From contig NZ_CP039291.1 of the NCBI RefSeq assembly GCF_004798685.1, forward strand, positions 1,240,001-1,304,000: 64,000 bases of DNA. Reading direction: 5' to 3'. This document shows, one piece after another, positions 3,457-43,954 of the stretch. Made by a program: the position numbers and the translations under genes. The stretch comes from Cellulomonas shaoxiangyii. GTDB taxonomy: Bacteria; Actinomycetota; Actinomycetes; Actinomycetales; Cellulomonadaceae. The notes under the pieces were generated by a model that had not been told where the DNA came from, made no database searches, and worked only from the letters and a program-made list of their open reading frames with translations. How positions within the stretch are numbered: the first letter of the stretch is position 1; each line of letters opens with the position of its first letter.

Positions 3457-3495
3457 GTGAGCGCCCCGTGCGGACCGGCCGCGGCGTGCACGGCG

Positions 3496-6026: not shown

Positions 6027-6027
<1 letters not shown>
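3496..6027 (-). CDS. ABC transporter permease, MacB/FtsX family with two FtsX domains
   Basis: Membrane subunit of a type VII (MacB-like) ABC exporter, 843 residues. Seen: an N-terminal membrane segment near residues 17-40, a first FtsX domain near 260-390 (three helices, beginning with the run ending ALVIANTF), a large extracytoplasmic segment, and a second FtsX domain near 705-840 containing ANTLSLSVIERRRE, typical of the family. The start is fixed by context: ATG at 6027 shares one base with the TGA of the upstream ATPase (TGATG), so the two are translationally coupled. Lies downstream of a NarL-type two-component system, as do many peptide/antibiotic-responsive exporters of Firmicutes and actinomycetes; substrate unknown. 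Confidence 0.9.
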
Positions 6028-6839
<812 letters not shown>

Positions 6840-6992
6840 GAGGGGGCGCTCCTGTTCCGGTGAGGATGCCCCCAGCCTCGCCCGCGGCGGTCCGGCGCCG
6901 CGTCCGGCCGGCGGTGGGTCGTCCGGCCCCGGCCGTCATACCTGGGCCGCACGTCACGCGCGACGCGCGGGGGAGCGGCGCGCCCGCGCGCG

Positions 6993-23463: not shown

Positions 23464-24083
23464 GCGTCGTGCGGCCGTGCGCCGTCGAGGGTGCCTGGGT
23501 CGTGGAGCCGGACGTGCACGAGGACGACCGCGGGTCGTTCGTGGAGGCGTTCTCGTACGCGCGCGTCGAGGAGGCCACGGGGCGCCCGTTCGATGTGCGG
23601 CAGGTCAACTCCTCGGTCTCCCGCCCGGGCGTGCTGCGCGGGATCCACTTCGCGCAGATGCCGCCGTCCCAGGCCAAGTACGTGACGTGCACCAGCGGGT
23701 CGGTCTTCGACGTCGTGGTCGACCTGCGCGTCGGGTCGCCGACGTTCGGCGCGTGGGACGGGGTCGTCCTGGACGCGTCGTCGCGCCGGTCGATCCTCGT
23801 CAGCGAGGGCCTGGGCCACGGCTTCCTCGCGCTCGACGAGGGCGCCACCGTGGTGTACCTGTGCACCGCGCCCTACGCTCCGGGGCGTGAGCACGGGATC
23901 GACCCGTTCGACCCCGCCATAGCGATCGCGTGGCCGTCGGTGCGGGGCGTGGCGCGGCCGCTGCTGTCCGACAAGGACCGCGACGCGCCGTCGCTCGCGG
24001 AGGTGCGGGCGGCCGGTCTGCTCCCCACGGCCGCCGAGGTCCAGGGTTTCCTCGAGTCCCTCGTCGGCGCGCCACTGTCCTGA
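23460..24083 (+). CDS. rmlC: dTDP-4-dehydrorhamnose 3,5-epimerase RmlC
   Basis: Cupin epimerase of dTDP-L-rhamnose synthesis, 207 residues. Seen: EDDRGSFVEAF, VNSSVSRPGVLRGIHFAQMPPSQAKYVTC (active-site His and Lys), FDVVVDLRVGSPTFG, EGLGHGFLAL and the active-site Tyr in CTAPYAPGREHGI. The C-terminal 25 residues extend beyond the core cupin. GTG start overlaps the gtrA-like stop. Compare the paralogue at 32225-32794, which has Phe at that Tyr position. Confidence 0.95.
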   Translation: MSVVRPCAVEGAWVVEPDVHEDDRGSFVEAFSYARVEEATGRPFDVRQVNSSVSRPGVLRGIHFAQMPPSQAKYVTCTSGSVFDVVVDLRVGSPTFGAWDGVVLDASSRRSILVSEGLGHGFLALDEGATVVYLCTAPYAPGREHGIDPFDPAIAIAWPSVRGVARPLLSDKDRDAPSLAEVRAAGLLPTAAEVQGFLESLVGAPLS

Positions 24084-24138: not shown

Positions 24139-26958
24139 ATGCCCCGCACCGCCCGCTGGATCGCGCGCGCGACCGCGCTCGCCGTCGTACTGACCGGTGT
24201 GGTCCTGCAGCCGGCGGCCGTCGCGCCCGCGGAGGCCGCGGACCCGGCGGCCTTCCGGTCCGGCAGCATCATCAGCGACGCCCTGTTCTTCGACGGCGGC
24301 GCGATGACCCCGGCAGACGTGCAGCAGTTCCTCGAGCTCAAGCGGCCGACGTGCACGGCCGGCTACGTGTGCCTCAAGGACTACGTCGCGCCGACGACGG
24401 CACAGCCTGCCGAGCCCGGCATGTGCGCGGGCTACGCCGCGTCCCCCGGGGAGTCGGCGGCGACGATCATCGCGAAAGTCGGCGCCAGCTGCGGGATCAG
24501 CCAGAAGGCGCTCCTGGTCACGCTGCAGAAGGAGCAGGGACTCGTGACGGCGACGGCGCCGGGGGAGACCCGCTACCGCACCGCCATGGGGTTCGGATGC
24601 CCTGACACCGCACCATGCGAGGCGCAGTACTACGGCTTCTTCAACCAGGTCTACCGCGCCGCCCGGCAGTTCAAGCGCTATGCCGCCAACCCGACGGCCT
24701 ACAGCTACCGCGCGGGTCGCACCAACACGATCCTCTTCCACCCGTCGGGCGCCGCGGCGTGCGGCAGCAGCTCTGTGTACATCGAGAACCAGGCGACGGC
24801 CGGTCTCTACATCTACACGCCGTACCAGCCGAACAGCAGCGCGCTGACGAACCTGTACGGCACCGGGGACGGCTGCGCCGCGTACGGCAACCGGAACTTC
24901 TGGCGCGACTACACCGACTGGTTCGGCTCCACCCAGGTCGGCGCGAACCTCGTCCGGACCGTCGGCGACCCGCAGGTCTACCTCGTCACGCTGGACCGCA
25001 AGCACCCGGTCGACGACGTCGAGACGCTCGACTCGCTCAGCTCCCTCGGCCCCGTCGGCTACGTGAGCCAGGCGTTCCTCGACAGCCGTCCCACGGGCAC
25101 CCGGCTGGGCCGGTTCCTCCGGGACCGCGCCGGGCTGGTGTATCTCGTCGACCGCGGGTGGCTCTTCCAGGTGCGCGACTGCGCGCAGCTGTCGGCCTGG
25201 GGCGCCCGCTGCGAGGACTACGCGGCGATGCAGCTCTCCGACGCGCAGATGGCCGGCTTCGTCAAGGGCGGGGCCCTCAGCGACTCGGTGGTGACGCACG
25301 AGGGCAAGCGGTTCGTCGTCTACGGCGGGCAGCGGCACGAGGCGGCGGACGAGGCGTCCCTCGCGCTCGCGCCCGTGGCGCCGGGGCCCCCGATCGCCGT
25401 GCGCGAGGCCGCGCTGGCCGCCCTGCCCCACGGCGCGCCGCTGGTGCGGCCGGGGCTCGTGGTCCGGGACCGGTCCACGGGCGTCGACGCGCTCGTCGAC
25501 GAGGGGGCGACGTACGCCGTCGCCGCCGGGCTGACCGACGCCACCCGTCTCGGCGCGGCGCTCGGGGTGCGTCTGCTCGACACGCAGAGCTTCGCGCGAC
25601 TGCCGGCGCGGGCGGGCACCGTCGGCGGCGTCCTGCGCGCGCCCGAAGGGAGCCTGCTCGCGCTCACGCCTGCCGCGCCCGTGCGCCTGACCGCCGGCCA
25701 GCTGCCTCAGGCGGCGGCCGGGGCCCCGGCGGTGTCGGCACGTGTCGTCGCGGCGCTCGGCACGCCCACGGAGGGTCCGGTGTTCGCGCGGACCCCGCAG
25801 GCGCCCGAGCTCTTCCTGGCCGCGGACGCCGCACGCCGTCCGGTCGCGGCGATGGAGACGGTGAGCGCCCTGCTCGGGTCGCAGCCGCTGCGGGTGGTCA
25901 TGCTGTCTGCCGAGGTGCTGGCCGCCGTGCCCGTGGGGGCACCGCTGCTCACCCCTGGCATCGTCGTCAAGGCGGCGGGTGCACCGGAGCTCTACCTCGT
26001 CGACGGGACGAGCACGAAGGTCTTCGTGCCGTCGTTCGCCGTGCTCGACCGGCTCGGCGTCACCGGGTGGCGCGAGGTGCCTGCGACGTCGCTCGCCGGG
26101 TACGTGAGGGGCGCGCACCCGCTCGGCACGGCACTGGCGTGCGGCGACCTGCGCTTGGTCGGCGTCGGCGGCGGCGTGGCGACGGCGACGCGGGCGACGT
26201 TCGACGCCGCGGGCGTCCCGACGACGGTGCTCGATCCGTCGACCTGCGGCGCTCTGCCGCGTCGGGGCGACGTCGGTGCCGCGCCCTTCTTCGTGCGCTC
26301 GACGTCGTCCACGGACCTCGCCCTCGTGGCGGACGGCCGGCGTCGCCCCGTCGACGCGATGAGCACCGTCTACGCCGTCGCGGGGGACGCGCCGCTCGTC
26401 GTCGTGGAGGTGGACGCCCCGCGCCTGGCGGCGCTCCCGGCCGGGGCCCCGGTCCTCGCGCCCGGGCGTCTCGTCAAGGCTCAGGGTGCACCCGAGCTGT
26501 ACCTCGTCGACGGCGCGTCCCGCGTGGTGTTCCTCCCCAGCTTCGAGGTCTCAGCCGCACTGGGCGTGTCCGGCTGGACCGAGGTGCCGGCCTCCACGCT
26601 CGCCGCGTACGAGCGCGCGGTGGACCCGCTCAGCAGCGCCGTGTCCTGCGGTGCGCAGCGCTACGTCGGTAGCGGCGGCACCCTGCAACGGATTGGCGCC
26701 GACGTCGTCGACTCCTCCGGCGTGCCCGTGACCCGGCTGCAGACCGGCACGTGCGGGACGTTCCGCACGGTCGCCGGAGCCGGCCCCGTCTTCGTGAAGT
26801 CGTACGACGCGCCGACCGTGTACCTCGCCGCGGGTGGCCAGCGGCGGCCCGTCGCGAACATGACGCGGCTGTACGAGCTGACCCAGGGGAGGGCGCCCGC
26901 GATAGCCGTCGTGGCCCCCGCAGCCCTGGCTGCGATGCCGATCGGCGGCGCCGCGTGA
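24139..26958 (+). CDS. Secreted protein: lysozyme-like N-terminal domain plus C-terminal repeat module
   Basis: 939 residues, secreted (signal peptide about 1-35, ending AEAA before DPAAF). Residues about 40-260 contain four conserved Cys and a stretch resembling muramidase/glucosaminidase folds (ISQKALLVTLQKEQGLV, then YYGFFNQVYRAARQFKRYA and FWRDYTDWFG); the Glu of KEQG is a candidate acid, but this is inference. From about 270 to the end the protein matches the amidase-repeat protein at 33766-37083: a 270-residue shared region, then two full units (548-716, 717-883) and a partial third (884-939). Each unit carries a VFxR start, RRPVxxM, LYLVDG, FxPSF and a Cys pair. Function unknown; the rfbH operon starts 81 bases downstream. 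Confidence 0.85.
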   Translation: MPRTARWIARATALAVVLTGVVLQPAAVAPAEAADPAAFRSGSIISDALFFDGGAMTPADVQQFLELKRPTCTAGYVCLKDYVAPTTAQPAEPGMCAGYAASPGESAATIIAKVGASCGISQKALLVTLQKEQGLVTATAPGETRYRTAMGFGCPDTAPCEAQYYGFFNQVYRAARQFKRYAANPTAYSYRAGRTNTILFHPSGAAACGSSSVYIENQATAGLYIYTPYQPNSSALTNLYGTGDGCAAYGNRNFWRDYTDWFGSTQVGANLVRTVGDPQVYLVTLDRKHPVDDVETLDSLSSLGPVGYVSQAFLDSRPTGTRLGRFLRDRAGLVYLVDRGWLFQVRDCAQLSAWGARCEDYAAMQLSDAQMAGFVKGGALSDSVVTHEGKRFVVYGGQRHEAADEASLALAPVAPGPPIAVREAALAALPHGAPLVRPGLVVRDRSTGVDALVDEGATYAVAAGLTDATRLGAALGVRLLDTQSFARLPARAGTVGGVLRAPEGSLLALTPAAPVRLTAGQLPQAAAGAPAVSARVVAALGTPTEGPVFARTPQAPELFLAADAARRPVAAMETVSALLGSQPLRVVMLSAEVLAAVPVGAPLLTPGIVVKAAGAPELYLVDGTSTKVFVPSFAVLDRLGVTGWREVPATSLAGYVRGAHPLGTALACGDLRLVGVGGGVATATRATFDAAGVPTTVLDPSTCGALPRRGDVGAAPFFVRSTSSTDLALVADGRRRPVDAMSTVYAVAGDAPLVVVEVDAPRLAALPAGAPVLAPGRLVKAQGAPELYLVDGASRVVFLPSFEVSAALGVSGWTEVPASTLAAYERAVDPLSSAVSCGAQRYVGSGGTLQRIGADVVDSSGVPVTRLQTGTCGTFRTVAGAGPVFVKSYDAPTVYLAAGGQRRPVANMTRLYELTQGRAPAIAVVAPAALAAMPIGGAA

Positions 26959-26994
26959 CCTCCGGCGGTGTCGTCACGCCGGCACGCGCTCGCC

Positions 26995-27000
26995 TATGCT
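26995..27000 (+). promoter_or_regulatory. Minus-10 box of the rfbH-rfbG-reductase operon
   Basis: TATGCT, about 40 bases before the GTG of rfbH, with GAGGAG at about 27026-27031. Confidence 0.5.
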
Positions 27001-27039
27001 GAGGCGCCCCCCGCCCCCCGATCTGAGGAGTCCTGCGCT

Positions 27040-28365
27040 GTGAACGAAGCGCTCCACGCCCGCCGCGAGTCCATCCTCGAGAGCGTCCGCGCCTACGCCG
27101 AGGAGTCGCTCGCCCCGGGGGGCTTCCGTCCCGGGGAGTCGACCGTGCCGGTGTCGGGGAAGGTGCTCGACGCGGACGACATGGTCGCCCTCGTCGACTC
27201 GTCGCTCGACGGGTGGCTGACGGCGGGCCGCTGGACCACGGAGTTCCAGGCTGCGCTCGCGGAGTACGTCGGCGCGCGGTCCGCGTCGTTCGTGAACAGC
27301 GGCTCGTCCGCGAACCTCGCTGCGTTGTCCGCCCTGACGAGCCCGAAGCTGGGCAAGCGGCGCCTGCAGCCGGGCGACGAGGTCGTCACCGTCGCGGCCG
27401 GGTTCCCGACGACGGTCAACCCGATCATCCAGAACGGCCTCAAGCCCGTGTTCGTCGACGTCGAGATCGGCACGTACGACGCGATCGGCGACCAGCTGCG
27501 GGAGGCCATCGGGCCCCGTACACGCGCGATCATGATGGCCCACACGCTGGGCAACCCGTTCGACCTCGACCTCGTGCAGGAGCTCTGCAAGGAGAACGAC
27601 CTGTGGCTCGTCGAGGACTCCTGCGACGCCCTCGGCTCGACGTACCGCGGCCAGCGGACCGGGTCGTTCGGCGACACGGCGACCGTGTCGTTCTACCCCG
27701 CGCACCACATCACCACGGGTGAGGGCGGCGCAGTCTTCTCGAAGAACCCGCTCGTGACCCGGCAGGTGGAGTCGTTCCGCGACTGGGGCCGCGACTGCTA
27801 CTGCGAGACCGGGCAGGACAACACCTGCGGCAAGCGTTTCGGCTGGTCGCTCGGCGAGCTGCCGTTCGGGTACGACCACAAGTACACGTACAGCCACATC
27901 GGCTACAACCTCAAGGGCACGGACATGCAGTGCGCCCTGGGGCTCAGCCAGCTGCGGAAGGTCGACCACTTCGTCGCGCGCCGCAAGGAGAACTTCGCGT
28001 ACCTGTATGAGCGGCTGCGGGACGTCGAGGGCCTGATCCTGCCGCAGGCGACGCCGAACTCGGACCCCGCATGGTTCGGGTTCCCGATCACCCTCGCGGA
28101 CGACCTCGACGTCGACCGTGAGGAGCTGATGCGCTACCTCGAGTCGAAGAAGGTCGGCACGCGCCTGATCTTCGCCGGCAACCTCCTCCGCCAGCCGGCG
28201 TACCGCGGCCTCGACTGCCGCGTCGTGGGCGACCTGCGCAACTCCGACACCGTCATGACCCGCTCCTTCTGGCTCGGTGTGTACCCGGGCCTGACGCCGT
28301 CGATGCTCGACTATGCCGCCGACTGCGTCATCGAGTTCATCGAGGAGCAGGGCGAGGGCATCTGA
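27040..28365 (+). CDS. rfbH: CDP-6-deoxy-D-xylo-4-hexulose-3-dehydrase RfbH (E1)
   Basis: PMP- and [2Fe-2S]-dependent dehydrase that removes the C3 hydroxyl of CDP-4-keto-6-deoxyglucose, the committed step to 3,6-dideoxyhexoses. 441 residues. It has the DegT/DnrJ fold, but the PLP lysine is replaced: FYPAHHITTGEGG has His-His (222-223) where aminotransferases have Lys, the signature of this enzyme. Fe-S ligand candidates are the Cys of VEDSCDALGS and three in RDCYCETGQDNTCGKRF. GTG start with GAGGAG upstream. The stop touches the rfbG ATG (TGATG). Needs an electron donor; the usual RfbI/AscD ferredoxin-reductase is absent and a different reductase lies two genes on. Confidence 0.95.
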   Translation: MNEALHARRESILESVRAYAEESLAPGGFRPGESTVPVSGKVLDADDMVALVDSSLDGWLTAGRWTTEFQAALAEYVGARSASFVNSGSSANLAALSALTSPKLGKRRLQPGDEVVTVAAGFPTTVNPIIQNGLKPVFVDVEIGTYDAIGDQLREAIGPRTRAIMMAHTLGNPFDLDLVQELCKENDLWLVEDSCDALGSTYRGQRTGSFGDTATVSFYPAHHITTGEGGAVFSKNPLVTRQVESFRDWGRDCYCETGQDNTCGKRFGWSLGELPFGYDHKYTYSHIGYNLKGTDMQCALGLSQLRKVDHFVARRKENFAYLYERLRDVEGLILPQATPNSDPAWFGFPITLADDLDVDREELMRYLESKKVGTRLIFAGNLLRQPAYRGLDCRVVGDLRNSDTVMTRSFWLGVYPGLTPSMLDYAADCVIEFIEEQGEGI

Positions 28366-29399
28366 TGCACTACCTCGTCACCGGGCACACGGGGTTCAAG
28401 GGGGCGTGGCTCACCGTGCTGCTGCGGCAGCTCGGGCACGAGGTGTCGGGCCTGGCGCTCGACCCCGCGCCGGGCTCCCTCTTCGAGCGCGCCGGCCTGG
28501 CGGCGCAGCTGGACCACGACCTGCGCGTCGACGTGCGCGACGCCGAGGCGACGGCCGATGCCGTCTCCGCCGTCGCGCCCGACGTAGTGGTGCACCTCGC
28601 GGCCCAGCCCCTCGTGCGCGAGTCGTACCGCGACCCGCGCGGCACGTGGGAGTCGAACGTGAACGGCACGTTCAACGTGCTCGAGGGCGTGCGTGCCACC
28701 CCGTCGGTGCGGGCGCAGGTCGTCATCACGACCGACAAGGTGTACCGCAACGTCGACCAGATCTGGGGCTACCGCGAGACCGACGCGCTCGGTGGAGTCG
28801 ACCCGTACTCCGCGTCGAAGGCGGCGGCGGACCTGCTCACGCAGTCGTGGATCGCCACCTCGGCCAGCACGGTGCCGACCGCGATCGCCCGGGCGGGCAA
28901 CGTCGTCGGCGGCGGCGACGTGTGCCCCGAGCGCCTCATGGTGGACCTCGTCGCCGCCTTCGCTGCAGGCGACCCGGTCCGCCTTCGCTTCCCGGACGCG
29001 GTTCGTCCGTGGCAGCACGTCCTCGACTGCGTCCAGGGCTACGTCGCGCTGGCGGACGCGCTGGTGGCGGGCCGTCACGCGGGCGAGGCCTTCAACTTCG
29101 GCCCGGGGACCGGGTCGTTCGTGCGGGTGGGGGACGTCGCGCAGCAGGTGGCCGACCTGTGGGGTGGCGGGGCGCGCATCGAGCTCGACGAGCAGCCGGC
29201 CGTGCACGAGGCAGGACTCCTGGCGCTCGACTCCCGGAAGGCGGAGCTGCTGCTCGGCTGGCGTGACCGCCTGAGCTTCCGTGACGCGCTGCGCTGGACG
29301 GTCGACTGGTCGCGCGCCGTGCACGACGGCGCGGACGCGCGCGAGCGGACCATGGCCCAGGTCGACGAGTACCTGGCTCTCGGAAGGACGACGGCATGA
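28365..29399 (+). CDS. rfbG: CDP-glucose 4,6-dehydratase RfbG
   Basis: Extended SDR that makes CDP-4-keto-6-deoxyglucose, the RfbH substrate; 344 residues. Seen: LVTGHTGFKGAWL (the GHTGFKG loop is typical of CDP-glucose dehydratases), VVHLAAQPLVRESY, ESNVNGT, TTDKVYRN, DPYSASKAAAD (Tyr/Lys) and ARAGNVVGGGD, RPWQHVLD. ATG shares one base with the rfbH stop and its TGA overlaps the next ATG, so the three genes are translationally linked. Confidence 0.95.
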   Translation: MHYLVTGHTGFKGAWLTVLLRQLGHEVSGLALDPAPGSLFERAGLAAQLDHDLRVDVRDAEATADAVSAVAPDVVVHLAAQPLVRESYRDPRGTWESNVNGTFNVLEGVRATPSVRAQVVITTDKVYRNVDQIWGYRETDALGGVDPYSASKAAADLLTQSWIATSASTVPTAIARAGNVVGGGDVCPERLMVDLVAAFAAGDPVRLRFPDAVRPWQHVLDCVQGYVALADALVAGRHAGEAFNFGPGTGSFVRVGDVAQQVADLWGGGARIELDEQPAVHEAGLLALDSRKAELLLGWRDRLSFRDALRWTVDWSRAVHDGADARERTMAQVDEYLALGRTTA

Positions 29400-30397
29400 C
29401 CCACCACCACGACTTCACCCACCGTACGGCGTGCGACGTCGCCATCGTGGGGGCCGGCCCGACGGGCCTCTTCGCGGCCTACTACGCCGGTTTCCGTGGG
29501 CTGTCCGTGGTGGTGGTCGACTCGCAGTCGGCTCCCGGGGGCCAGGTCTCCGCGCTCTACCCGACCAAGATCATCCACGATGTCGCCGGCTTCGCCGGCG
29601 TCTCCGGCGCCGACCTGGTGGCCGGGCTGGCCGAGCAGGCGCGGCAGTACGAGCCGCGCATGGTGTTCGACGCGAACGTCGTCGACGTGATCCGGGAGGA
29701 CGAGGACGGTGGCTTCGCCGTGTCCCTCGGGGACGGCCGGGCCATCGACGCGCGAGCGGTCATCCTCGCGACGGGCGTCGGCGGTACCCGTCCGCGCATG
29801 CTCCCCGCTGCCCACGGCTGGGCGGGCCGCGGCGTGACGTACGTGGTCGACGACCCGTCGCAGCACGCGAACCAGGACGTCGTGATCGTCGGCGGCGGTG
29901 ACACCGCGCTCGACTGGGCGATCCAGCTCCGCCCGATCGCGCGCTCCGTCACGGTCGTCCACCGTCGGCGCGCGTTCCGCGCGCACGGGTCGCAGATCGC
30001 CCGTGCGGAGTCGGTCGGCGTGCACCTGCTCACCGACAGCGAGATCCAGTCCATCCACGGCGACGACGTCGTGCGGTCGGTGGTCGTGCGCGACGGAGCC
30101 GGGGGCGAGCGGGAGATCCCTGCGGAGACCGTCATCGGCGCCCTCGGGCTGGTGCAGGCGCCGCCGCCCTTCGCTGCGTGGGGCCTGGAGATGCACGACC
30201 GCAAGCTGCTGGTCGACCGTACGATGCAGACGAACGTGCCGGGGATCTACGGTGCAGGTGACGGCACCACGTACCCCGGCAAGGTGACCCTCATGGTCAC
30301 CGGCTTCGGCGAGGCGGCCAGCGCGGTCAACAACGCGGCCGTCTTCATCGACCCGGAGCTGTCCCTCACCCCGGGCCACTCGACCGACTTCGACTGA
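29396..30397 (+). CDS. Thioredoxin-reductase-like ferredoxin/flavodoxin-NADP reductase
   Basis: FAD/NADPH oxidoreductase, 333 residues. Seen: FAD loop VAIVGAGPTGLFAAYY, GGQVSALYP, ATGVGG, NADPH loop VVIVGGGDTALDWA, HRRRAFRAHG, and the second FAD motif YGAGDGTTYPGKVTLMVTGFGEAA. It lacks the CxxC redox pair of thioredoxin reductases, as in type-2 ferredoxin-NADP reductases (YumC family). ATG overlaps the rfbG stop by four bases. Position suggests it delivers electrons to RfbH in place of the plant-ferredoxin-type RfbI/AscD; a direct or ferredoxin-mediated route cannot be told from sequence. Confidence 0.9.
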   Translation: MTHHHDFTHRTACDVAIVGAGPTGLFAAYYAGFRGLSVVVVDSQSAPGGQVSALYPTKIIHDVAGFAGVSGADLVAGLAEQARQYEPRMVFDANVVDVIREDEDGGFAVSLGDGRAIDARAVILATGVGGTRPRMLPAAHGWAGRGVTYVVDDPSQHANQDVVIVGGGDTALDWAIQLRPIARSVTVVHRRRAFRAHGSQIARAESVGVHLLTDSEIQSIHGDDVVRSVVVRDGAGGEREIPAETVIGALGLVQAPPPFAAWGLEMHDRKLLVDRTMQTNVPGIYGAGDGTTYPGKVTLMVTGFGEAASAVNNAAVFIDPELSLTPGHSTDFD

Positions 30398-30412
30398 GCG
30401 GCTCCCCGCAGG

Positions 30413-30451
30413 ACGACGGCCCGGTCCCGCGCGAGCGGGCCGGGCCGTCGT
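30413..30451. terminator. Strong bidirectional terminator between the two dideoxyhexose operons
   Basis: ACGACGGCCCGG (30413-30424) pairs perfectly with CCGGGCCGTCGT (30440-30451); inside, CCCGC pairs with GCGGG around a GCGA loop with a single T bulge. It sits between the convergent stops at 30397 and 30478, so it can serve both operons. Confidence 0.85.
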
Positions 30452-30477
30452 GGTGCGGCAGGACGCTGGGACGCCCG

Positions 30478-31341
30478 TCAGGCGTCCGTCGTCGCCGGCG
30501 CGGACGTGCCGCGACGGGTCCAGGCTGTCACGACGTACGCGGTCTTGCGCAGCAGGTCCTGGACCCGCACGCCGACCCGCGACACCGCGAGGTCGACGCG
30601 GGAGAGGTCGGCGAGCCCGGCCGTGCGGACGCGGTCGACCCAGCCGTCGATGTGGCGCGCCTGGACGTCGGAGAGGGACGACGACCAGGAGCCGTGCGCC
30701 ATCCGGAAGCGGGCGAGAGGGGCGCGCGTGACGACGAGCGTCCCCTCCTGCAGGACCTTGGAGTACATGTCGACGTCGATGACGTAGCCGAGGGAACCGT
30801 CCCAGGGCAGGTGCGCGACAAGAGCGTCGCGACGGAACATGACCGCCGACGGCTCGCCCAGGAGGTTGCTGCCCACGAGCACGCACCGACGGACGGCTGT
30901 CCGGCCGTCGATCTCCCCGCGCAGCGTGGTCAGCCCTCGGCGCGCGACCACGACACGGCCGTCGTCGTCCACCACCTTCCGCATCGCCGCGGCCATGACG
31001 GCGCGGGGGTGGGACTCCAGCTGGGCGCCCTGGACCTCGAGGGCGTTGGGCTCGAGCACGTCGTCCGCGCAGACGAGCTTGACCAGGTCGCCCGTCGTGT
31101 GCCGGATCGCGTCGGACCAGTTCGTCGCAGCGTCGACCAGCCGGTCCTGGGTGACGACGCGGACGCCGGCGGGCGCGTGCGCCACGAGCCACTCGGCCGT
31201 GCCGTCCGTCGAGCCGTTCTCGAGGACGATCACCTCGTCAGCCGGACGGGTCTGCCCCAGCACGCTCGCCAGTGTCGCCGGCAGGTGCGGCATCCCATCG
31301 TGCACCGGGATGACGACACTGAGCCTGCTCCTCGTGCTCAT
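30478..31341 (-). CDS. GT2 family glycosyltransferase
   Basis: Cytoplasmic GT-A transferase, 287 residues, no membrane helix. Seen: RLSVVIPVHDGMPHLPATLASVLGQ, VIVLENGSTDGT, the metal site VKLVCADDVLEPN and GEPSAVMFRRDALV, ending in a basic tail. ATG overlaps the upstream SDR stop (ATGA). Last gene of the rfbF operon, so it is the best candidate to transfer the dideoxyhexose to the growing chain; the assignment rests on position only. Confidence 0.9.
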   Translation of the reverse strand: MSTRSRLSVVIPVHDGMPHLPATLASVLGQTRPADEVIVLENGSTDGTAEWLVAHAPAGVRVVTQDRLVDAATNWSDAIRHTTGDLVKLVCADDVLEPNALEVQGAQLESHPRAVMAAAMRKVVDDDGRVVVARRGLTTLRGEIDGRTAVRRCVLVGSNLLGEPSAVMFRRDALVAHLPWDGSLGYVIDVDMYSKVLQEGTLVVTRAPLARFRMAHGSWSSSLSDVQARHIDGWVDRVRTAGLADLSRVDLAVSRVGVRVQDLLRKTAYVVTAWTRRGTSAPATTDA

Positions 31342-32228
31342 CGGTCCTCTCCTCCGTCGCGGGCGGCCCAGACGTCGGCCAGGCCGGCTTCCAGGGACAG
31401 CTCCGGCGACCAGTCCCACGGCTCGGACGTCACGCGCCAGTCCTCGCGCATCTCGCGCGGCCGGTCGGGACGGGTCCCCCAGCGCACGTCGAGCGGTCGC
31501 CCGGTCACGTCGCGCACGACGTCGGTGAGCGCGCGCACCGTGACGGGCGCACCCGAGCGGAGCACGAACCGTCCCCGGACGGGTCCCGGGTGCTCGGCCG
31601 CCACGCGCAGGCCCGCGACGACGTCGCTCACGTGCGTGAGGTCGACGAGCTGGGTGCCCGACGACATGTCGAGCGTGGCGCCGGTCACCGCGCCGTCGAG
31701 CAGCACGTCGACGAGCTTGTGCCGGTCGTCGTCCGGCCCGTAGGTGTCGAACAGGCAGACCTCGCGCGCGTCGAGCCCGTCGACCTCGGCGAAGTAGCGG
31801 ACGACGTCCACGAATGCCTGCTTCATCGCCGCGTACAGCGACACCGGGTCGTACTCGGCGCCGCCGTGGTGCTGCCAGGCGGACGTCGTGTGCACGAGCC
31901 GTGCGCCCGCGGCAACGGCCGCCTCGGCGACGACCGTGCCCAGCGTGACGTTCGAGTCGACCATGTCGGCCAGCTCCGCCGGCCGGTGCCGGGCGACGAA
32001 GTGGGTCGCGAGGTGGAACACCGTGTCGGGTTCGACGCGCGCGATCAGCTCCGCCACGTCGACGCTCGGCCGCTCCAGCGGGTGCAGCAGCGTCGCCGCG
32101 GGCAGGGCCGGCCGGCGGGCCGACGTGGCGCGCGTGGGCACGTGGACCTCGATCCCGTCGGCGGCGAGCGAGCGCACGAGGTGCCGGCCGACGAAGCCGG
32201 TCCCGCCCGTGACGAGCACGCGCTTCAT
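31338..32228 (-). CDS. NAD-dependent SDR, probable CDP-4-keto-3,6-dideoxyhexose reductase (RfbJ/AscF-like)
   Basis: 296 residues. Seen: VLVTGGTGFVGRHLV, DTVFHLATHF, TTSAWQHHGG, YAAMKQAF (Tyr/Lys), CLFDTYGPDDDRHKLVDVLLD and LVDLTHVSDVV. The layout (HLAT, then Y-x3-K, then a YGPxD...K stretch) resembles CDP-abequose synthase RfbJ. Between the RmlC-like gene and a glycosyltransferase in the rfbF operon, the last reductase of a CDP-3,6-dideoxyhexose pathway is the likely job. ATG at 32228 overlaps the upstream stop by four bases; a start at 32240 is less likely. Product stereochemistry cannot be read from sequence. Confidence 0.8.
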   Translation of the reverse strand: MKRVLVTGGTGFVGRHLVRSLAADGIEVHVPTRATSARRPALPAATLLHPLERPSVDVAELIARVEPDTVFHLATHFVARHRPAELADMVDSNVTLGTVVAEAAVAAGARLVHTTSAWQHHGGAEYDPVSLYAAMKQAFVDVVRYFAEVDGLDAREVCLFDTYGPDDDRHKLVDVLLDGAVTGATLDMSSGTQLVDLTHVSDVVAGLRVAAEHPGPVRGRFVLRSGAPVTVRALTDVVRDVTGRPLDVRWGTRPDRPREMREDWRVTSEPWDWSPELSLEAGLADVWAARDGGEDR

Positions 32229-32794
32229 GCCGCGTCCCACACGAACGGCGAGGCGAACTCCTCCAGACGCGGGAGGCCCGCGTCACGGTCGGAGGTGATC
32301 GGCTCGGTGGTCTCCCACGCGATGCCCGCGGAGTCCCAGCGCACACCGGCGTCGGTGGCGGGGTCGAACGGCACGTCCTGGAGGTAGCACAGGACGGCGT
32401 CGTCGTCGCCCACCACCTCGAAGCCGTGGGCGCACCCCACCGGGACCACGACGGAGCCCGCGCCCGGCGTGAGGTCGAAGCGGGCGTGCTGCCCGTACGT
32501 CGGGGAACCGACGCGGAGGTCGACGACGACGTCCGTCACGCGTCCGGTGACCGCGAACACGATCTTCGCGACCGCGGTGGGGGGCGTCTGGAAGTGCAGG
32601 CCTCGCACCGTGCCGGGGTGCGAGCTGCTCCAGTACACCTCAGCGACACCCATGTCGATGCCGGCAGCCGCCAGCGCGTCGGGGGCGTACGGCTTCGTGA
32701 AGGAGCCGCGGCGGTCGCTGTGGAAGGGCGTGACCAGGAGGCCGACGCCCGGCAGGGCGGAGGACTCGAACCGGGGTGCGACCACCCGCTTCAC
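32225..32794 (-). CDS. RmlC-like cupin nucleotide-sugar epimerase
   Basis: 189 residues of the RmlC family. Seen: DRRGSFTKPYAPDAL, SHPGTVRGLHFQTPPTAVAKIVF (active-site His and Lys kept), VVVDLRVGSPTYG and PVGCAHGFEVVGDD. Where RmlC has the active-site Tyr (PYAP in the paralogue at 23460), this protein reads PFDP, so the Tyr is a Phe. In the rfbF operon it could be the C5-epimerase needed for an L-3,6-dideoxyhexose such as ascarylose. GTG overlaps the rfbF stop (GTGA). Confidence 0.85.
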   Translation of the reverse strand: MKRVVAPRFESSALPGVGLLVTPFHSDRRGSFTKPYAPDALAAAGIDMGVAEVYWSSSHPGTVRGLHFQTPPTAVAKIVFAVTGRVTDVVVDLRVGSPTYGQHARFDLTPGAGSVVVPVGCAHGFEVVGDDDAVLCYLQDVPFDPATDAGVRWDSAGIAWETTEPITSDRDAGLPRLEEFASPFVWDAA

Positions 32795-33561
32795 CACAGC
32801 TTCCACGGCGCGGTGCCGTCGGCCCACATCTGGTTGAGCATCGTCGACTCGCGCAGCGTGTCCATCGGCTGGAAGAAGCCCTCGTGCTTGTACGCCATCA
32901 GCTGGCCGTCGGCGGCGAGGCGCTGCAAGGGCTCCTGCTCGAGGACGCACTCGTCGTCGAGGTAGTCGATGACGCCGGGCTCGAAGACGAAGTAGCCGGC
33001 GTTCACCCAGCCGTCCGCCTGCGGCTTCTCGCGGAAGCGGTCGACGCTGCCGTCGTCGTTCAGGTCCATGACGCCGAAGCGGCTCGGTGGGCGCACCGTG
33101 GTGACCGTCGCCATGCGCCCGTGCGACTCGTGGAACGCAAGCAGGGCGCTGACGTCGACGTCGGCGAGCCCGTCGCCGTACGTGCAGAGGAACCGCTCGC
33201 CGGTGAAGTACTTCGACGCCTTGAAGACGCGGCCGCCCGTCATGGTGAGCTCACCGGTGTAGGCGACCGTCACGGTCCAGTCCGTGTCCTCGTGCGCGCC
33301 GTGGTACGTGAGCGACTCCCGCTGACCAAGGTGCACGGTCACGTCGTTGTTCCGGGCCTCGTAGTTGAGGAAGTAGTCCTTGATCGTGTCGCTCTTGTAC
33401 CCGGTGCACACGACGAAGTCGTCCTGCCCGTGGTGCGCATAGAGCTTCATGATGTGCCAGAGGATCGGGCGTCCCCCGACCTCGACCATCGGCTTCGGAC
33501 GGTACTCGGTCTCCTCGCGCAGACGCGTGCCGAGACCTCCGGCCAGCAGGACGGTCTTCAT
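32791..33561 (-). CDS. rfbF: Glucose-1-phosphate cytidylyltransferase RfbF
   Basis: Makes CDP-glucose from glucose 1-phosphate and CTP, first step of the CDP-sugar pathway; 256 residues, full length. Seen: VLLAGGLGTRLREETEYRPKPMVEVGGRPILWHIM (nucleotide loop), FVVCTGYKSDTIKDYFLNYEA, FLCTYGDGLADVD (metal Asp), RPPSRFGVMDLNDDG, FREKPQADGWVNAGYFVF and the HEGFFQPMDTLRE end, all characteristic of RfbF. First gene of a four-gene operon in which every junction overlaps by four bases. AGGAG lies just upstream of the ATG. Confidence 0.96.
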   Translation of the reverse strand: MKTVLLAGGLGTRLREETEYRPKPMVEVGGRPILWHIMKLYAHHGQDDFVVCTGYKSDTIKDYFLNYEARNNDVTVHLGQRESLTYHGAHEDTDWTVTVAYTGELTMTGGRVFKASKYFTGERFLCTYGDGLADVDVSALLAFHESHGRMATVTTVRPPSRFGVMDLNDDGSVDRFREKPQADGWVNAGYFVFEPGVIDYLDDECVLEQEPLQRLAADGQLMAYKHEGFFQPMDTLRESTMLNQMWADGTAPWKLW

Positions 33562-33723
33562 CGTCTCCTCATTCGTCGGGGGTCTCCGCCGCGGCGGGCG
33601 GGCGAACGCGCGCCAGGCTATCCCAGAAGGAATGGCGCCCTGCCGTGGCCGTGGCGCCGGCCCACCGGATCGGGAGCGCGCCGGCGCGGCCCCCCTCGGG
33701 CGGTGGGCGCGAGGCCGGCGGTG

Positions 33724-33751
33724 CCTCCCACCCCGAGCCGGGGCGGGGAGG
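33724..33751 (-). terminator. Possible terminator after the amidase-repeat gene
   Basis: Interrupted stem CCTCCC-A-CCCCG, loop AGC, CGGGG-CG-GGAGG-like right arm, starting 15 bases past the stop at 33766. The rest of the 204-base gap 33562-33765 holds a TAGCCT box near 33618-33623 that could serve rfbF. Confidence 0.45.
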
Positions 33752-33765
33752 GACCCCCGTGCGGC

Positions 33766-36700
33766 TCACCGCAGCGGCGCGCCCGTGGGCAGGCGATCGA
33801 GCGCCGGCTGCGGCACCACCGCGACGACGAGTGCGCCCCCGGCCGCTGCCCGGTACGCCGCGTCCATCGTCGTGACCGGCCGCCGTGTGCCGCCCTCGAG
33901 CAGGTACAGCGTCGGGTCGCCGGCCGAGCGCACGAACACCGGGCCCGTCAGCGGGGTGCCCTGGCGCAGGGCGCCGCACGTGACGGTGTCGACGGTGGTC
34001 GCGGGCGTGCCGTCGGCTGCCACGGTGCCGGCAGGCAGCGGCCGCAGGACGCCGCCGACGCCGACGAGCGAGGTGCCCCCGCAGCGCAGCAGCTGCGACA
34101 GCGGATTCGCCGCCCGCGGGTAGGCGGTCGTCCACGCCGTCGGCACCTCGGTGAAGGTCGTCGGGACACCTAGTGCCTCGGCGACCGCGAACGACGGCAG
34201 GAACACCGAGCGCCCGAGCCCGTCGACGAGGAGCACGTCCGGCCGGTCGGGGGTCTTCACGAGCCGCCCCGGGGGCAGCACCGTCGGGCCGGTCGGCACC
34301 GCCGCCAGGGCGGCCGCCGGGACGGTGGCGACGCCGAGGGGGCGGCCGCCGAGCAGTGCGGTCACGGTGTCCATCGTCGGTACCGGACGGCGCACAGCGT
34401 CCGTGAGCAGGTACAGCGTCGGATCGTCCGCGGTGCGCGCGAAGACCGGTGCCTGCCACGTGGCGGCCGCCCGCGGGGCTGCCGCGCACGTCAGGTCGTG
34501 CAGCGCCTGCGCGGGCGCACCGGACGCCGGGAGAACGCCCGACGGCAGCGGGTGGAGCCGGCCCTCCCGTGCGAGGTGGTCCGTGCCACCGCACCGCCAC
34601 AGCATGCCGAGTGGCTGCGGTGCGCGGCGGTAGGCCGCGACGGTCGCGGCCGGCGCCTCCGACCACGAGGTCGGCACCCCCGCAGCGAGGGCCTGGTCGA
34701 ACGAGGGCAGCGGGACAAGGCGGTCCAGACCGTCGACGAGGTAGACCGTCACGGCGTCGGGAGCCTTGACGAGCCGGCCCGGACCGAGGGCCGCGGGACC
34801 GGTCGCGAGCTGACCGAGGCCGGCCGCCGACACGAAGGCGGCGACCACGCCGCGGCCCCCCGTGAGCGCGTTCGCCGCGTCCATCGTCAGCACCTCGCGG
34901 CGCACCGAGCCGTCGATGAGGAACAGGGTCGGGTCGGCCCCCGTCCGTGCGAACAGCGTCGAGGCGGGTGCCGCGGGCGAGAGTGCGGACACGACCGCGT
35001 CCTCCACCGGGACGCCCGGGTCGCCCGGCACCTGGCTGCTCGTCAGACGAACCGCGCCGCCCGCGGTGAGGGCGACGCGACCGCCGTCGGACGTCCGCAG
35101 GGCCCCGTCCAGCACGCCCCGCGGCGTGACTAGCGCCGCCATGCTGCCTGGGTCCAGGGGGCGCAGCGGCAGCCGGTCGGTGATGCGCGACGCCGAGACG
35201 AGCGACGCGGACAGGCGCAGGCCCGCCGGCCGGTCGAGCAGCACGGCGTCGCCCGAGGCGCGGTCCTGCACGACCACCCCGGTCCGCACCACCGGAGCCC
35301 CGTACGGCAGGTGGAGGCCGACCGAGGCGTCGAGCTCGACGGCTGGCCCGTTCGACTGCACGGGCCAGGCGGCGAGCGCCTCGGCGTCCGTGATCTCGTG
35401 CCGGCGTCCCTGGTGCACGAGGAAGTACTGCCACTGGGGCGTCACGTAGGCGGTCGTGAGGTCCGGGCCGGGTTGCAGGAGAGACATCACGGGATCGGGC
35501 ACCGCCATGGCGCCGTAGTCCCCGCAGCTGCGTCCCCAGGCCTCGAGCTCGGCGCAGCTGTCGACGCGGTGCAGGCGCCCGCGCTCGACGAGCGCGACGA
35601 CGCCGTCACGGTCTCGCAGGAAGCGCCCCACGGGCACCCCGTCCCCGAGCTGGTCGACCTGCACCTGCTGAACCACGGTGATCGCCCCGAGCGGGCGCAG
35701 TGCGTCGAGCATCGTCGCGTCCGTCAGACGGTGCTTCGTCGTAGCGGTCGTGAGGTAGACGTCGGGAGCTCCGGAGGCGCGCACCAGGGTGCCTCCGAGC
35801 CGGGACGTGCCGTACCCGTCGACGATCTGCTGCGCGCGGGCCCGGATCGCACCCATGGCGGCGTAGCCCGCGTTGCCCGGGCAGGTCGTGTACGCGACGT
35901 CACGGTGGGCGAAGACCACGGGCAGGCGCACCGTGCTGTTGGGCCCGTAGCGGGAGTTCTCCCCGCCGTTGGTGTGGATGACGACCTCTCCGCCGGGTGA
36001 GCGTCCGTACGCGGCGAGCCGCCACGCGACGATGCGGGCGATCGCGTCGGTCGTCGCGGGCGTGAAGCCGACGTCCGTGTACGTCCCCAGCACGGAGACG
36101 CCGAGTGTGCCGGTGTTGAAGCCACCGGCGTGCACACCGACGACGGGGGAGGTGAGCGACCCCACGCGGCCCTCGTAGAGCGTGCCCCACTTGTCGACCA
36201 CGATGTTGTAGCCCAGGTCGCACCACCCGCGGGAGTCCATGTGGTACCGCTGGTCGTTGCGCAGCTGGGCCATCGCCTCGGCGGGCGACGCGTAGTCCGG
36301 GCCGGCGGTGTGGTGCACGACGGCACCGACGAGCGTGGACGCGGTGTCGGGAGTGCACGAGGGAGCGCGGGCCCCCCACTGCGCGCGGGTGACGACGCCC
36401 GGCGCGGAGGCCGCCGTCGCTGTGACCGCGGCCGCCGGCGCGGGGACCGCCGCCCCGCGGACGGCACCGGCCCCACCCGCGGGGGCGACGGCAGCACCCG
36501 TGATCTCGGTCGACAGGAGCGCGACCTCGACGTCCTGCGGTGCCTCGGCGCCCGGTGCCACCGTGAAGGCGACCTGGACCCCGTCCGCGTCCCCGACCCA
36601 CAGCGACGACGTGCCGTCGCGGCGCTGCCGGGCGGCGTCCGGCGTGCCGGGGTCCGGCCCGCCCGCGTCGGTCTCGAGCGCGAGCCACGGGGACCACGTG

Positions 36701-37083
36701 CCGTCCGACAGGTACCGGACCTGTGCGTCCAGGGCGCCGTCCCCGGTGCCTTCGGCCCACGTGATGCCGACCGTCTGCACGGTGTCGTCGCTCTCCACCA
36801 CGGGCCCCTCGAGGCGTGTCGCACCCGGCGGGAGCGGCAGCGCGTCCGGGTCACGGCCCTCCGCGAGCACGGGCGCGTCGGCGGGTGCGGGCGCGTCCCG
36901 GAGCGGGACGGCCACCTCGTCGAGCGCGACGTCGGGGGTCGCGGCCGTGCGGACCGCGGCCGCCGGCGCGCGCGCACCCGCCGCCGACGCCGCGGCCGTC
37001 GGAGCTGCCCACGCCACGTGCGTCGTGCCGACGGGGGCGACGAGCGCGAGCGTGAGGACTACGCACGAACGGGTGATCCGCAT
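33766..37083 (-). CDS. Secreted PGRP-type N-acetylmuramoyl-L-alanine amidase with C-terminal repeat module
   Basis: 1,105 residues. Signal peptide about 1-26. Residues about 75-200 form a beta-rich region (WSPWLALETDAG...DGVQVAFTV) found N-terminal to PGRP domains. Amidase_2/PGRP domain about 225-410: VVHHTAGPDY (first Zn His), RYHMDSRGWCDLGYNIVVDKWGTLYEGR, GVHAGGFNTGTLGVSVLG and AHRDVAYTTCPG (second Zn His, Zn Cys), so catalytic residues look intact. The rest matches the protein at 24139-26958: shared region about 420-700, then repeats from about 711, 880 and 1049 (period 169). Located upstream of rfbF on the same strand. Likely wall-associated autolysin; role of the repeats unknown. Confidence 0.88.
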   Translation of the reverse strand: MRITRSCVVLTLALVAPVGTTHVAWAAPTAAASAAGARAPAAAVRTAATPDVALDEVAVPLRDAPAPADAPVLAEGRDPDALPLPPGATRLEGPVVESDDTVQTVGITWAEGTGDGALDAQVRYLSDGTWSPWLALETDAGGPDPGTPDAARQRRDGTSSLWVGDADGVQVAFTVAPGAEAPQDVEVALLSTEITGAAVAPAGGAGAVRGAAVPAPAAAVTATAASAPGVVTRAQWGARAPSCTPDTASTLVGAVVHHTAGPDYASPAEAMAQLRNDQRYHMDSRGWCDLGYNIVVDKWGTLYEGRVGSLTSPVVGVHAGGFNTGTLGVSVLGTYTDVGFTPATTDAIARIVAWRLAAYGRSPGGEVVIHTNGGENSRYGPNSTVRLPVVFAHRDVAYTTCPGNAGYAAMGAIRARAQQIVDGYGTSRLGGTLVRASGAPDVYLTTATTKHRLTDATMLDALRPLGAITVVQQVQVDQLGDGVPVGRFLRDRDGVVALVERGRLHRVDSCAELEAWGRSCGDYGAMAVPDPVMSLLQPGPDLTTAYVTPQWQYFLVHQGRRHEITDAEALAAWPVQSNGPAVELDASVGLHLPYGAPVVRTGVVVQDRASGDAVLLDRPAGLRLSASLVSASRITDRLPLRPLDPGSMAALVTPRGVLDGALRTSDGGRVALTAGGAVRLTSSQVPGDPGVPVEDAVVSALSPAAPASTLFARTGADPTLFLIDGSVRREVLTMDAANALTGGRGVVAAFVSAAGLGQLATGPAALGPGRLVKAPDAVTVYLVDGLDRLVPLPSFDQALAAGVPTSWSEAPAATVAAYRRAPQPLGMLWRCGGTDHLAREGRLHPLPSGVLPASGAPAQALHDLTCAAAPRAAATWQAPVFARTADDPTLYLLTDAVRRPVPTMDTVTALLGGRPLGVATVPAAALAAVPTGPTVLPPGRLVKTPDRPDVLLVDGLGRSVFLPSFAVAEALGVPTTFTEVPTAWTTAYPRAANPLSQLLRCGGTSLVGVGGVLRPLPAGTVAADGTPATTVDTVTCGALRQGTPLTGPVFVRSAGDPTLYLLEGGTRRPVTTMDAAYRAAAGGALVVAVVPQPALDRLPTGAPLR

Positions 37084-41806: not shown

Positions 41807-42816
41807 GCCGACAGCAGCCGCTCGACGACCTTCGACCACGACAGCTCGGCGGCGCGGCGGCGGCCCTCCTCGCCCATGGCGCGGGCGTTATCGCGGTCGG
41901 CCGCGAGTCGCTCGACGGCGTCGGCGAGCCCTTCGGGTGTCCCGTCCGTGACGTAGCCCGTGACGCCGTCCTCGACCCACTCCAGGACGCCACCGGCGTC
42001 GTGGGCCGTGATCACCGGCTTGCCGGCGAGGAACGCCTGCAGGGTCACGTAGCCGTAGTCCTCGTCGAAGGGCGCGTAGATGACGCCGAGGGCACCGGCG
42101 TAGCGGTCCACGAGCTCCGCGTCCGGCACGAACCCGGCGAGCTCGACCCGGTCGCCCAGGTTCTGCCGCTCCACCCCGGCCGCCAGGTCCGCCGCCATCG
42201 AGCCACGCCCCGCCACGACGGCGCGCACCCCGGATCGCACGTGCGCCATGGCGTCGACGATGCGGTCGGGACGCTTGTTCGTCTCGAGCCGCGTGGGCGT
42301 GAAGACGTAGTCCCCCATCTCGCCGGTGCGCAGCCGGTCCGCGAGGGGCGGCGGGTGGTACAGGGCCTCACCGTCGAGTCCGTTGAAACGGGCCAGCCGG
42401 TCGGCGACGACGTGCGAGGTCGTGAAGACGTGCCGTGCCTCCTCGAGCGCACGGGTGTCCCACTCGGTCAGCTGGCGCTGCACCTCGAGCGCGTCGTCGT
42501 CGAGCCCGAGGTCCGACCACGGCGCGTCGATCGCGTCGTACGCGCCCCGGTGCTGGTGGAACAACCAGACGACCTTGTGGTCGTGCCGGGCGAAGTAGGA
42601 CGGGAAGTTCGTGGCCACCACGACGTCCGCGTCGAGGGGCAGCATGCGCCACGCGAGCGGGGCGTCGAAGAGCCGGTCCTTCTCCCACGCGGTCGGCAGG
42701 TGCACCAGCTCGCTGCGGTGCCCCGCCTCCTGCATCGCGCGGACGATGTTCTGCATGTGCAGCTCGGCGCCGCCGCTGACGAACGGGACCTGCGCTCCGC
42801 AGACGATGACGTCCAC
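41803..42816 (-). CDS. GT4 family glycosyltransferase
   Basis: 337 residues. Seen: VDVIVCGAQVPFVSGGAELHMQNIVRAM (GT-B N-terminus with the GGAE loop), FTPTRLETNKRPDRIVDAM, VELAGFVPDAELVDRYAGALGVIYAPFDEDYGYVTLQAFLAGKPVI with the E/GYVTLE-like donor motif and a C-terminal helix. GTG at 42816 chosen because of GAGG eleven bases upstream and homology onset; GTG at 42828 is possible. First gene of the operon with the GT4-like protein and the methyltransferase; divergent from the ABC exporter. Confidence 0.9.
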   Translation of the reverse strand: MDVIVCGAQVPFVSGGAELHMQNIVRAMQEAGHRSELVHLPTAWEKDRLFDAPLAWRMLPLDADVVVATNFPSYFARHDHKVVWLFHQHRGAYDAIDAPWSDLGLDDDALEVQRQLTEWDTRALEEARHVFTTSHVVADRLARFNGLDGEALYHPPPLADRLRTGEMGDYVFTPTRLETNKRPDRIVDAMAHVRSGVRAVVAGRGSMAADLAAGVERQNLGDRVELAGFVPDAELVDRYAGALGVIYAPFDEDYGYVTLQAFLAGKPVITAHDAGGVLEWVEDGVTGYVTDGTPEGLADAVERLAADRDNARAMGEEGRRRAAELSWSKVVERLLSA

Positions 42817-42979
42817 GCGGGATCTCACCTCGTTCTTGGCTCGGGGGTCCGGGGGGCCGGACGGACGGCCGCGGGGCCCGGGCGAGGGCGCGGGCCCGGA
42901 CCTGCGCGGCGCGCCCATGGTAGCCGCGCGGGTGCGGAGCGGGATGCACCGGACGTCCCAGGACGAGCCTGCCGCCGAG

Positions 42980-42986
42980 GTAGGCT
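42980..42986 (+). promoter_or_regulatory. Possible minus-10 box of the polysaccharide exporter operon
   Basis: A TAGGCT hexamer lies about 33 bases before the ATG at 43019, which has AGGAG upstream. The 202-base region 42817-43018 is the divergent promoter for the GT4 operon and the exporter. Confidence 0.45.
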
Positions 42987-43018
42987 CTGGTTTTCGTGCG
43001 TGGAAACAGGAGCAGGGG

Positions 43019-43954
43019 ATGAGGGCGGCTGACGTGAGCGGCACGCGCGCCGCGGTGCCGTCGGCCGAGGGGTCGATGCAGCGGGTCTTCACCCGGCCCC
43101 GCTGGTTCCGAGGGAGCCTGCGGGACTGGGCGGACGTGTGGCGCTACCGCGAGCTCCTGAGCAACCTCGTCCGCAAGGAGCTCAAGGTCAAGTACAAGGA
43201 CTCCGTCCTGGGGTTCTTCTGGACGCTCGTGCGTCCGCTGCTGCAGCTGCTCGTGTACTCGGTCGCCATCGGCATCTTCCTGGGCAGCGGCCGGGTGATC
43301 CCGCAGTTCGGTGTCTACCTCTTCACCGGTCTGCTCGCCTGGAGCCTGTTCACGGACATCATCGGGGGCTCCACCGGTTCCATCGTGGGAAACGCCGGCC
43401 TGGTGAAGAAGGTGTACCTGCCGCGCGAGCTGTTCCCGTTCTCGGTGGTCGGCGCGAGTGCCGTCAACTTCGTCCTCCAGCTCGTGGTGCTGATCGGCGC
43501 CTACGTCGTGACCCGGTCCTGGCCGCAGCCGGGCGACCTGCTCCTCGTGCCGCTCGCGCTCGCGGTGCTGCTGGTGTTCGCCACCGCCCTCGGCCTCGTC
43601 CTCGCCGCCGCGAACGTCTACCTGCGCGACGTGCAGTACCTCGTGGAGGTGGGGCTGCTGCTGTGGTTCTGGATGACGCCGATCGTCTACGACTGGACGA
43701 AGGTGCGCGAGAACCTCTCGGGCGCGCAGGAGTGGCTGTTCCACCTGTACATGGCCAACCCGATGACCAACGTCGTCCTCGCCTTCCAGCGCGCGCTCTG
43801 GCCGGGCGGCCGCACCGAGGAGGGTGCGGCGTTCTACTACGACGGCGACCTCGTCACCCGGCTGCTGGTCGTCGGCGGCGTCAGCCTCGTCCTCCTGTGG
43901 TTCGCGCAGCGGGTCTTCGCGCGCGCCCAGGGCAACTTCGCGCAGGAGCTGTGA
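43019..43954 (+). CDS. ABC-2 polysaccharide exporter permease (Wzm/TagG-like)
   Basis: 311 residues, six membrane helices. Seen: VWRYRELLSNLVRKELKVKYKDSVLGFFWTLVRPLLQLLVYS, the conserved amphipathic KVKYKxSxLGxxW start of Wzm/TagG permeases, VYLPRELFPFS, AAANVYLRDVQYLVEVGLLLWFWMTPIVYDW and MANPMTNVV. Exports undecaprenyl-linked polysaccharide chains. ATG chosen over an in-frame GTG at 43034 because AGGAG sits eight bases upstream. Followed after two bases by its ATPase. Confidence 0.94.
   Translation: MRAADVSGTRAAVPSAEGSMQRVFTRPRWFRGSLRDWADVWRYRELLSNLVRKELKVKYKDSVLGFFWTLVRPLLQLLVYSVAIGIFLGSGRVIPQFGVYLFTGLLAWSLFTDIIGGSTGSIVGNAGLVKKVYLPRELFPFSVVGASAVNFVLQLVVLIGAYVVTRSWPQPGDLLLVPLALAVLLVFATALGLVLAAANVYLRDVQYLVEVGLLLWFWMTPIVYDWTKVRENLSGAQEWLFHLYMANPMTNVVLAFQRALWPGGRTEEGAAFYYDGDLVTRLLVVGGVSLVLLWFAQRVFARAQGNFAQEL

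Follow-up and report, generated by a model that had tools for sequence, protein, structure and literature searches.

Two secreted, putatively wall-directed proteins flanking a dideoxyhexose cassette in Cellulomonas shaoxiangyii share a tail of EccB-type repeats

In a stretch of 64,000 nucleotides of the Cellulomonas shaoxiangyii genome (assembly GCF_004798685.1, contig NZ_CP039291.1, positions 1,240,001 to 1,304,000 of the forward strand; hereafter, the window), two secreted proteins with different heads, one lysozyme-like (protein A) and one of the peptidoglycan recognition protein (PGRP) type (protein B), end in a common tail of about 675 residues, which is about 40% identical between them and whose repeats are related to those of EccB, a protein of type VII secretion systems. 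We think it probable that this tail tethers the paired putative enzymes to a conserved part of a wall glycopolymer. In a single BLASTP comparison, A and B were aligned over 696 columns (40% identity, E = 6e-116), and both frames, with their different heads and common C-terminal repeat module, are present as described in an earlier reading of the window (the sequence-only reading). The gene for A is on the plus strand and that for B on the minus strand; they thus face each other, with a dideoxyhexose cassette in between. When protein A was searched against the entire 3.9 Mb genome, A and B were the only matches; the distant relative P0015 as query added a single weak match, which involved its protease-like part rather than its repeats. 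Within the window pair, P0001 is 42% identical to P0002 but has relatives at 70-71% identity; thus, the pair was not recently homogenised.

Self-comparison of relatives gave offsets near 55, 111, 167, 221, 275 and 332 residues, and an AlphaFold2 model built from nine sequences shows an E-E-E-H-E-H pattern every ~56 residues, from residue 268 to 939. The tail thus consists of about 12 units of ~56 residues, with a predicted β-β-β-α-β-α fold. From residue 271 onward the block is modelled with a predicted local distance difference test score of 70-94; the predicted template-modelling score of the whole protein is 0.52, and the overall shape of the array is therefore not claimed. The sequence-only reading had described a shared region of 270 residues followed by units of 167-169 residues, the third truncated. 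Repeats in the same order are indeed found, but 167 residues as the fundamental unit is ruled out by the ~55-residue offsets and the model pattern: in protein A, five divergent units, which account for the supposed separate region, precede repeated three-unit blocks of 167-169 residues, and the "truncated" unit is one complete ~56-residue unit. A first-pass self-BLAST for repeats returned no rows. The tails of relatives are 176 to 844 residues long, the commonest lengths being near 500 (9 units) and 673 (12 units); sizes near 3, 5, 7, 9, 12 and 15 units rule out strict multiples of three, and tails of 439, 726 and 800 residues are exceptions to the size classes. These sizes come from 42 rows, in which L019|9130 and P0020 are one protein, other duplicates between the P and L sets were retained, and a G103 protein of below two units is absent.

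The relationship to EccB was seen by profile-profile comparison, which gave four matches with scores of 30-39 (best of 200 shuffles, 19); the pooled profile covered eight unit positions, with units 4, 5, 8 and 11 excluded. In the predicted structure the tail units match the EccB repeats by fold, unit by unit. The features by which we call a repeat EccB-type (a ~56-residue unit, its fold and its profile similarity) are present at the eight pooled positions. No Pfam or NCBIfam model spans the tail, neither protein matches T7SS_ESX1_EccB (PF05108) in Pfam at E ≤ 0.01, and EccB was not found by sequence-only HMMER searches of the PDB. The two best fold matches outside EccB were the wall-binding domains of PlyC and LysIME-EF1, matched by fold only and with a weak Z; a viral fold library gave two matches with E ≤ 0.001. 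The structure prediction proposed by the sequence-only reading as a check thus returned the EccB repeat and, weakly, endolysin wall-binding domains. Its description of the module as undescribed does not apply to the repeat fold, known from EccB, but does to the use of the fold as a hydrolase tail, which was not found in the literature searched. An EccB belonging to a type VII secretion system is also present in the same genome, G000 (L059, G000:C1:2735656-2736978).

The head of protein B belongs to the Amidase_2/PGRP family (PF01510, above cut-off), and a match to it occurs in 100 of 121 genomes of the family. The lysozyme-like head is found in 43 of these genomes; an alignment that took in 39 of the 43 heads has Glu132 of protein A invariant in all. 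The head of A differs from the glycoside hydrolase family 73 (GH73) glucosaminidases LytB and AtlE in that it has no Pfam match and, with Foldseek alone, matches them at E ≥ 1.9, which is not significant. A and B would form a peptidoglycan-directed pair, a lysozyme-like glycosidase and an amidase, with putative activities. At one locus (L126:8573-10951, G019) the lysozyme-like head extends over two frames, as if frameshifted.

The module was detected in 14/121 family genomes and in at least 10 of 345 class genomes, two of them already counted in the family set; few candidates were scored per genome in the class survey, making its count a lower bound. The 28 module proteins, from 22 genomes, carry a lysozyme-like head (13), a PGRP head (13) or a metalloprotease head (2); those of G051 and G080 are limited to about two units, and G027 has two on separate contigs, which may be a single gene assembled twice. 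We also took the best 80 of at least 553 relatives of protein A as named loci, a set biased towards protein A's tail: 66 carry the EccB-type tail, many in genera that we take to belong to the Microbacteriaceae. Just three further proteins came from a second search for homologues. Wall hydrolases are not the sole carriers of the module: besides the metalloproteases, it occurs in a relative with S-layer-homology domains (P0016) and in one, P0015, whose head is trypsin-like by eye and has no Pfam match. The zinc-metalloprotease-like heads with an EccB-type tail (L019:9130-12198, minus strand; L191:1-2469, plus strand) lie in genomes of two different families; a metalloprotease of this kind could make the set a trio.

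Exporter, glycosyltransferase or Rml homologues lie within ~10 kb of 29 of the 43 lysozyme-like head loci, as opposed to 1 of 16 control stretches, and Rml homologues alone at 18/43 and 0/16, respectively. The controls came from 11 genomes at hand-chosen positions; one, L034, shares its contig with a module locus and contains a PGRP, and another, L043, was picked for a protease match. Neighbours were sought as relatives of window genes, so that absence means no relative of those, and some contigs are short. Among the named loci with an EccB-type tail, whose flanks cover at most 10 kb on each side, 50 of 66 have glycosyltransferase, ABC-exporter or rhamnose-gene homologues. This setting also bears on the idea that the enzymes attack the walls of other bacteria, with the tail aimed at competitors: the proteins do resemble bacteriolysins, which we take to be secreted hydrolases with variable aiming tails, but with 29/43 head loci adjoining glycopolymer-type genes we consider such a role very unlikely.

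The sequence-only reading had proposed as ligand the product of the genes that separate A and B, a 3,6-dideoxyhexose polymer. Those genes were confirmed: RfbF, RfbG and RfbH, of the CDP-3,6-dideoxyhexose pathway, all score over curated cut-offs, and a short-chain dehydrogenase and a GT2 glycosyltransferase accompany them. The position of this cassette between the two genes speaks for the proposal, as does a PGRP head in another genome, G022, that adjoins RfbF. However, RfbH is over its cut-off in 3/121 family genomes, among which only the present one also has the module, and was found in the flanks of none of the best 80 named loci; moreover, the G022 protein carries a DUF4214-type tail instead of the EccB type. 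In the syntenic locus of Cellulomonas sp. Root485, both proteins retain the EccB-type tail, and no relative of the cassette lies between or beside the pair (the search covered the locus only); the gap is filled by one long frame, membrane protein-like by eye. The flanking GT2a, GtrA, MT, GT4a, ABC2 and SDR genes of Root485 are 57-79% identical to those of the window and GT2b 39%, and its two proteins are 48-49% identical to their window counterparts and ~42% to each other. A dideoxyhexose-specific module was therefore rejected, and recognition of that polymer seems to us very improbable. The G022 PGRP head (L147:9119-11077) is 66% identical to that of protein B, and its tail is 40% identical to the tail in G067, which is DUF4214.

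On the same heads, relatives carry other tails, some of which Pfam names: LGFP, ChW, CWB2, DUF4214, Ig-like and FG-GAP; ChW and CWB2 figure as cell-wall-binding repeats in a list within PMC6403190. Tails were clustered by single linkage, which merges Ig-like with FG-GAP tails in cluster 1 and ChW with CWB2 tails in cluster 5; the Ig-like label was given to most cluster 1 tails by eye, Big_7 being above cut-off in one. Among the 43 genomes with the lysozyme-like head, 42 have a tail of at least 100 residues on it, and the 28 that also have such a tail on a PGRP head were tested. The two tails of one genome tend to resemble each other more than expected by chance, though with clear exceptions: mean relative similarity was 0.219 for a genome's own pair and 0.050 after shuffling (0/5000 shuffles as high), or 0.245 and 0.143 when shuffled within genera only (25 genomes; 1/5000). 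Both tails fell in the same cluster in 16/28 genomes (shuffle mean 5.0, maximum 10; 2000 shuffles), matched each other directly by BLAST in 14/28 and had a similarity above 0.2 in 13/28. In five genomes, G000, G016, G051 (narrowly), G067 and G089, the tail nearest to the lysozyme-type one is that of its own partner, the inclusion of G000 being valid only inside the 121-genome sample. The likeness of the tails would follow their ligand.

Recombination of neighbouring genes could also make the tails alike, without any common ligand. The tails of unrelated heads are 94% identical in DNA over 1189 bp in G016 and 96% over 577 bp in G067, as after recent conversion or transfer, and in 11 of the 16 cluster matches both genes lie inside one 20-kb stretch; in G089 the DNA of the two tails is 77% identical, and a metalloprotease with the same tail is encoded between the two head genes. 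On the other hand, the two EccB-type tails of G445 are encoded ~110 kb apart, those of G009 (~50 kb apart) and G091 (on different contigs) are alike though not neighbours, and unrelated sequence families of tails were exchanged on both heads. We regard recombination as the sole cause as unlikely; it is in any case compatible with tethering to a common polymer, and the alternatives considered here are not all mutually exclusive.

Several observations weigh against tethering by the EccB-type tail. The tails mismatch by cluster in 12/28 genomes (G018, G106 and ten that belong to three genera); among the cluster matches, those of G063 and G080 lack direct similarity (for G080 Pfam assigns ChW to one tail and CWB2 to the other), and the similarity in G090 is short only, which leaves 13 above 0.2. 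The same glycan genes flank 14/14 of the best 80 named loci that have other tails; with 50/66 for the EccB type, the glycan-gene setting thus goes with the head and not with this tail. Moreover, where a module-bearing PGRP occurs without the lysozyme-type head, 8/9 stretches are without glycan genes, including those of all seven g21 genomes, and the module is also found on proteases, two with metalloprotease heads. As to fold, units 4, 5, 8 and 11 singly match EccB poorly (best 13-23), whole-model Foldseek comparisons with EccB give template-modelling scores of 0.06-0.08 (by query) with root-mean-square deviations of 31-43 Å (9.8-44 Å in VIA), so that the likeness holds unit by unit only, and the PlyC and LysIME-EF1 scores are in the tool's middling range. 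Peptidoglycan binding by EccB is, according to PMC4769845, as yet without experimental support.

The same paper suggests a structural role for EccB, and the array may, like a structural ESX part, bind no glycan and instead carry the head through the wall as a spacer or as a scaffold for contacts between proteins; its length, variable size (176 to 844 residues) and varied heads would also allow this. Against it stand the CWB2 and ChW tails that fill the same slot in relatives, both named among cell-wall-binding repeats in PMC6403190, and the finding that wall-binding domains are the two best fold matches outside EccB; we judge a pure spacer unlikely. The earlier suggestion of a wall-directed recognition tail is, in contrast, supported by the wall-binding-like fold, weak in Z, the slot shared with CWB2, ChW and LGFP tails and the 50/66 loci near glycan genes.

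Under wall tethering, A and B would be secreted wall enzymes encoded in a locus that makes and exports a wall glycopolymer, and the ~12 EccB/PlyCB-type units could hold both to the polymer through many weak contacts. The target would most likely be a conserved, perhaps rhamnose-containing part (rhamnan) rather than the dideoxyhexose branch, and the tail may act as an interchangeable label, relatives having exchanged it on the same heads for other types, which include known wall binders. More tentatively, and with less than even confidence, we propose a conserved actinobacterial head pair (sometimes a trio with the metalloprotease), often in a glycopolymer locus, in which jointly exchanged tails label the wall polymer, the EccB-type array being a covalent counterpart of the PlyCB ring for a rhamnose-type backbone and EccB itself binding wall polymer likewise. 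The analysis links an unclassified repeat of secreted actinobacterial proteins to the type VII EccB repeats and, with less strength, to the wall-binding domains of phages, which opens a direct route to the ligands of EccB repeats. Should tails track the polymer, the chemistry of a wall could be predicted from the tail types in a sequence, and the tails could be a source of modular, non-phage wall binders.

The features of the window are collected in Table 1; RfbH is presumably the CDP-4-keto-6-deoxyglucose 3-dehydratase. The flavoprotein gene directly follows rfbH and rfbG, and its product could donate electrons to RfbH. ARAGORN calls a tRNA-Asp at 30445-30538, between two genes, but Rfam has no family at gathering scores anywhere in 15000-45000, so that the tRNA may be falsely called. 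A scan for the sigma-70 consensus returned no exact match. Near the window edge, 574-7947 is an open frame of 2457 codons with 90% G+C at third positions.

Table 1. Coordinates of the features discussed, in window positions
Feature	Position	Strand	Evidence or remarks
RmlC-like dTDP-4-dehydrorhamnose 3,5-epimerase domain	23481..24002	+	
Secreted protein A, 939 aa	24139..26958	+	signal peptide (by eye), lysozyme/GH73-like head, 12-unit EccB-type array
Head of protein A, residues 31-266	24229..24936	+	Glu132 invariant in 39 aligned family heads
Array of protein A, ~12 EccB-type units, residues 267-939	24937..26955	+	borders taken from model
RfbH	26968..28365	+	NF011936 689 bits, cut-off 423
RfbG, CDP-glucose 4,6-dehydratase	28365..29399	+	TIGR02622 373 bits, cut-off 278
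Thioredoxin-reductase-like flavoprotein	29396..30397	+	below cut-off of each of 25 NCBIfam models listed
GT2 glycosyltransferase (start estimated)	30478..31359	-	
Short-chain dehydrogenase, probable CDP-dideoxyhexose synthase (putative role)	31338..32240	-	
RfbF, glucose-1-phosphate cytidylyltransferase	32791..33561	-	TIGR02623 347 bits, cut-off 300
Secreted protein B, 1105 aa	33766..37083	-	signal peptide (by eye), Amidase_2 PGRP head, ~12-unit array
Array of protein B, ~12 EccB-type units	33769..35811	-	sequence comparison with A and relatives
Amidase_2 (PF01510) domain of protein B	35872..36327	-	55.7 bits, cut-off 26
ABC-2 type exporter permease, domain in second half of frame (putative polysaccharide substrate)	42611..43954	+	
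Sugar nucleotidyltransferase domain, probably RmlA-like	51248..51952	-	

Among known systems, tails of the CWB2, ChW, LGFP and DUF4214 types take the place of the EccB-type array on these two heads in related genomes; the LGFP and DUF4214-like tails show no sequence relation to it, with profile scores at shuffle level. PlyCB, a ring of eight single domains as described in PMC4769845, and the wall-binding domain of LysIME-EF1, a four-member ring according to PMC7098653, are separate domains with no sequence match to the tail in PDB searches, whereas the copies in the tail are covalently linked. The nearest likeness is to repeats R1-R4 of EccB (PF05108), each described in PMC4769845 as a four-stranded sheet with two helices, which resemble the tail in unit length, strand and helix order and, at four places, profile similarity; EccB, however, has four such repeats, set around a core domain, together with a membrane helix, whereas the tail is a run of about 12 that follows the head of a secreted hydrolase.

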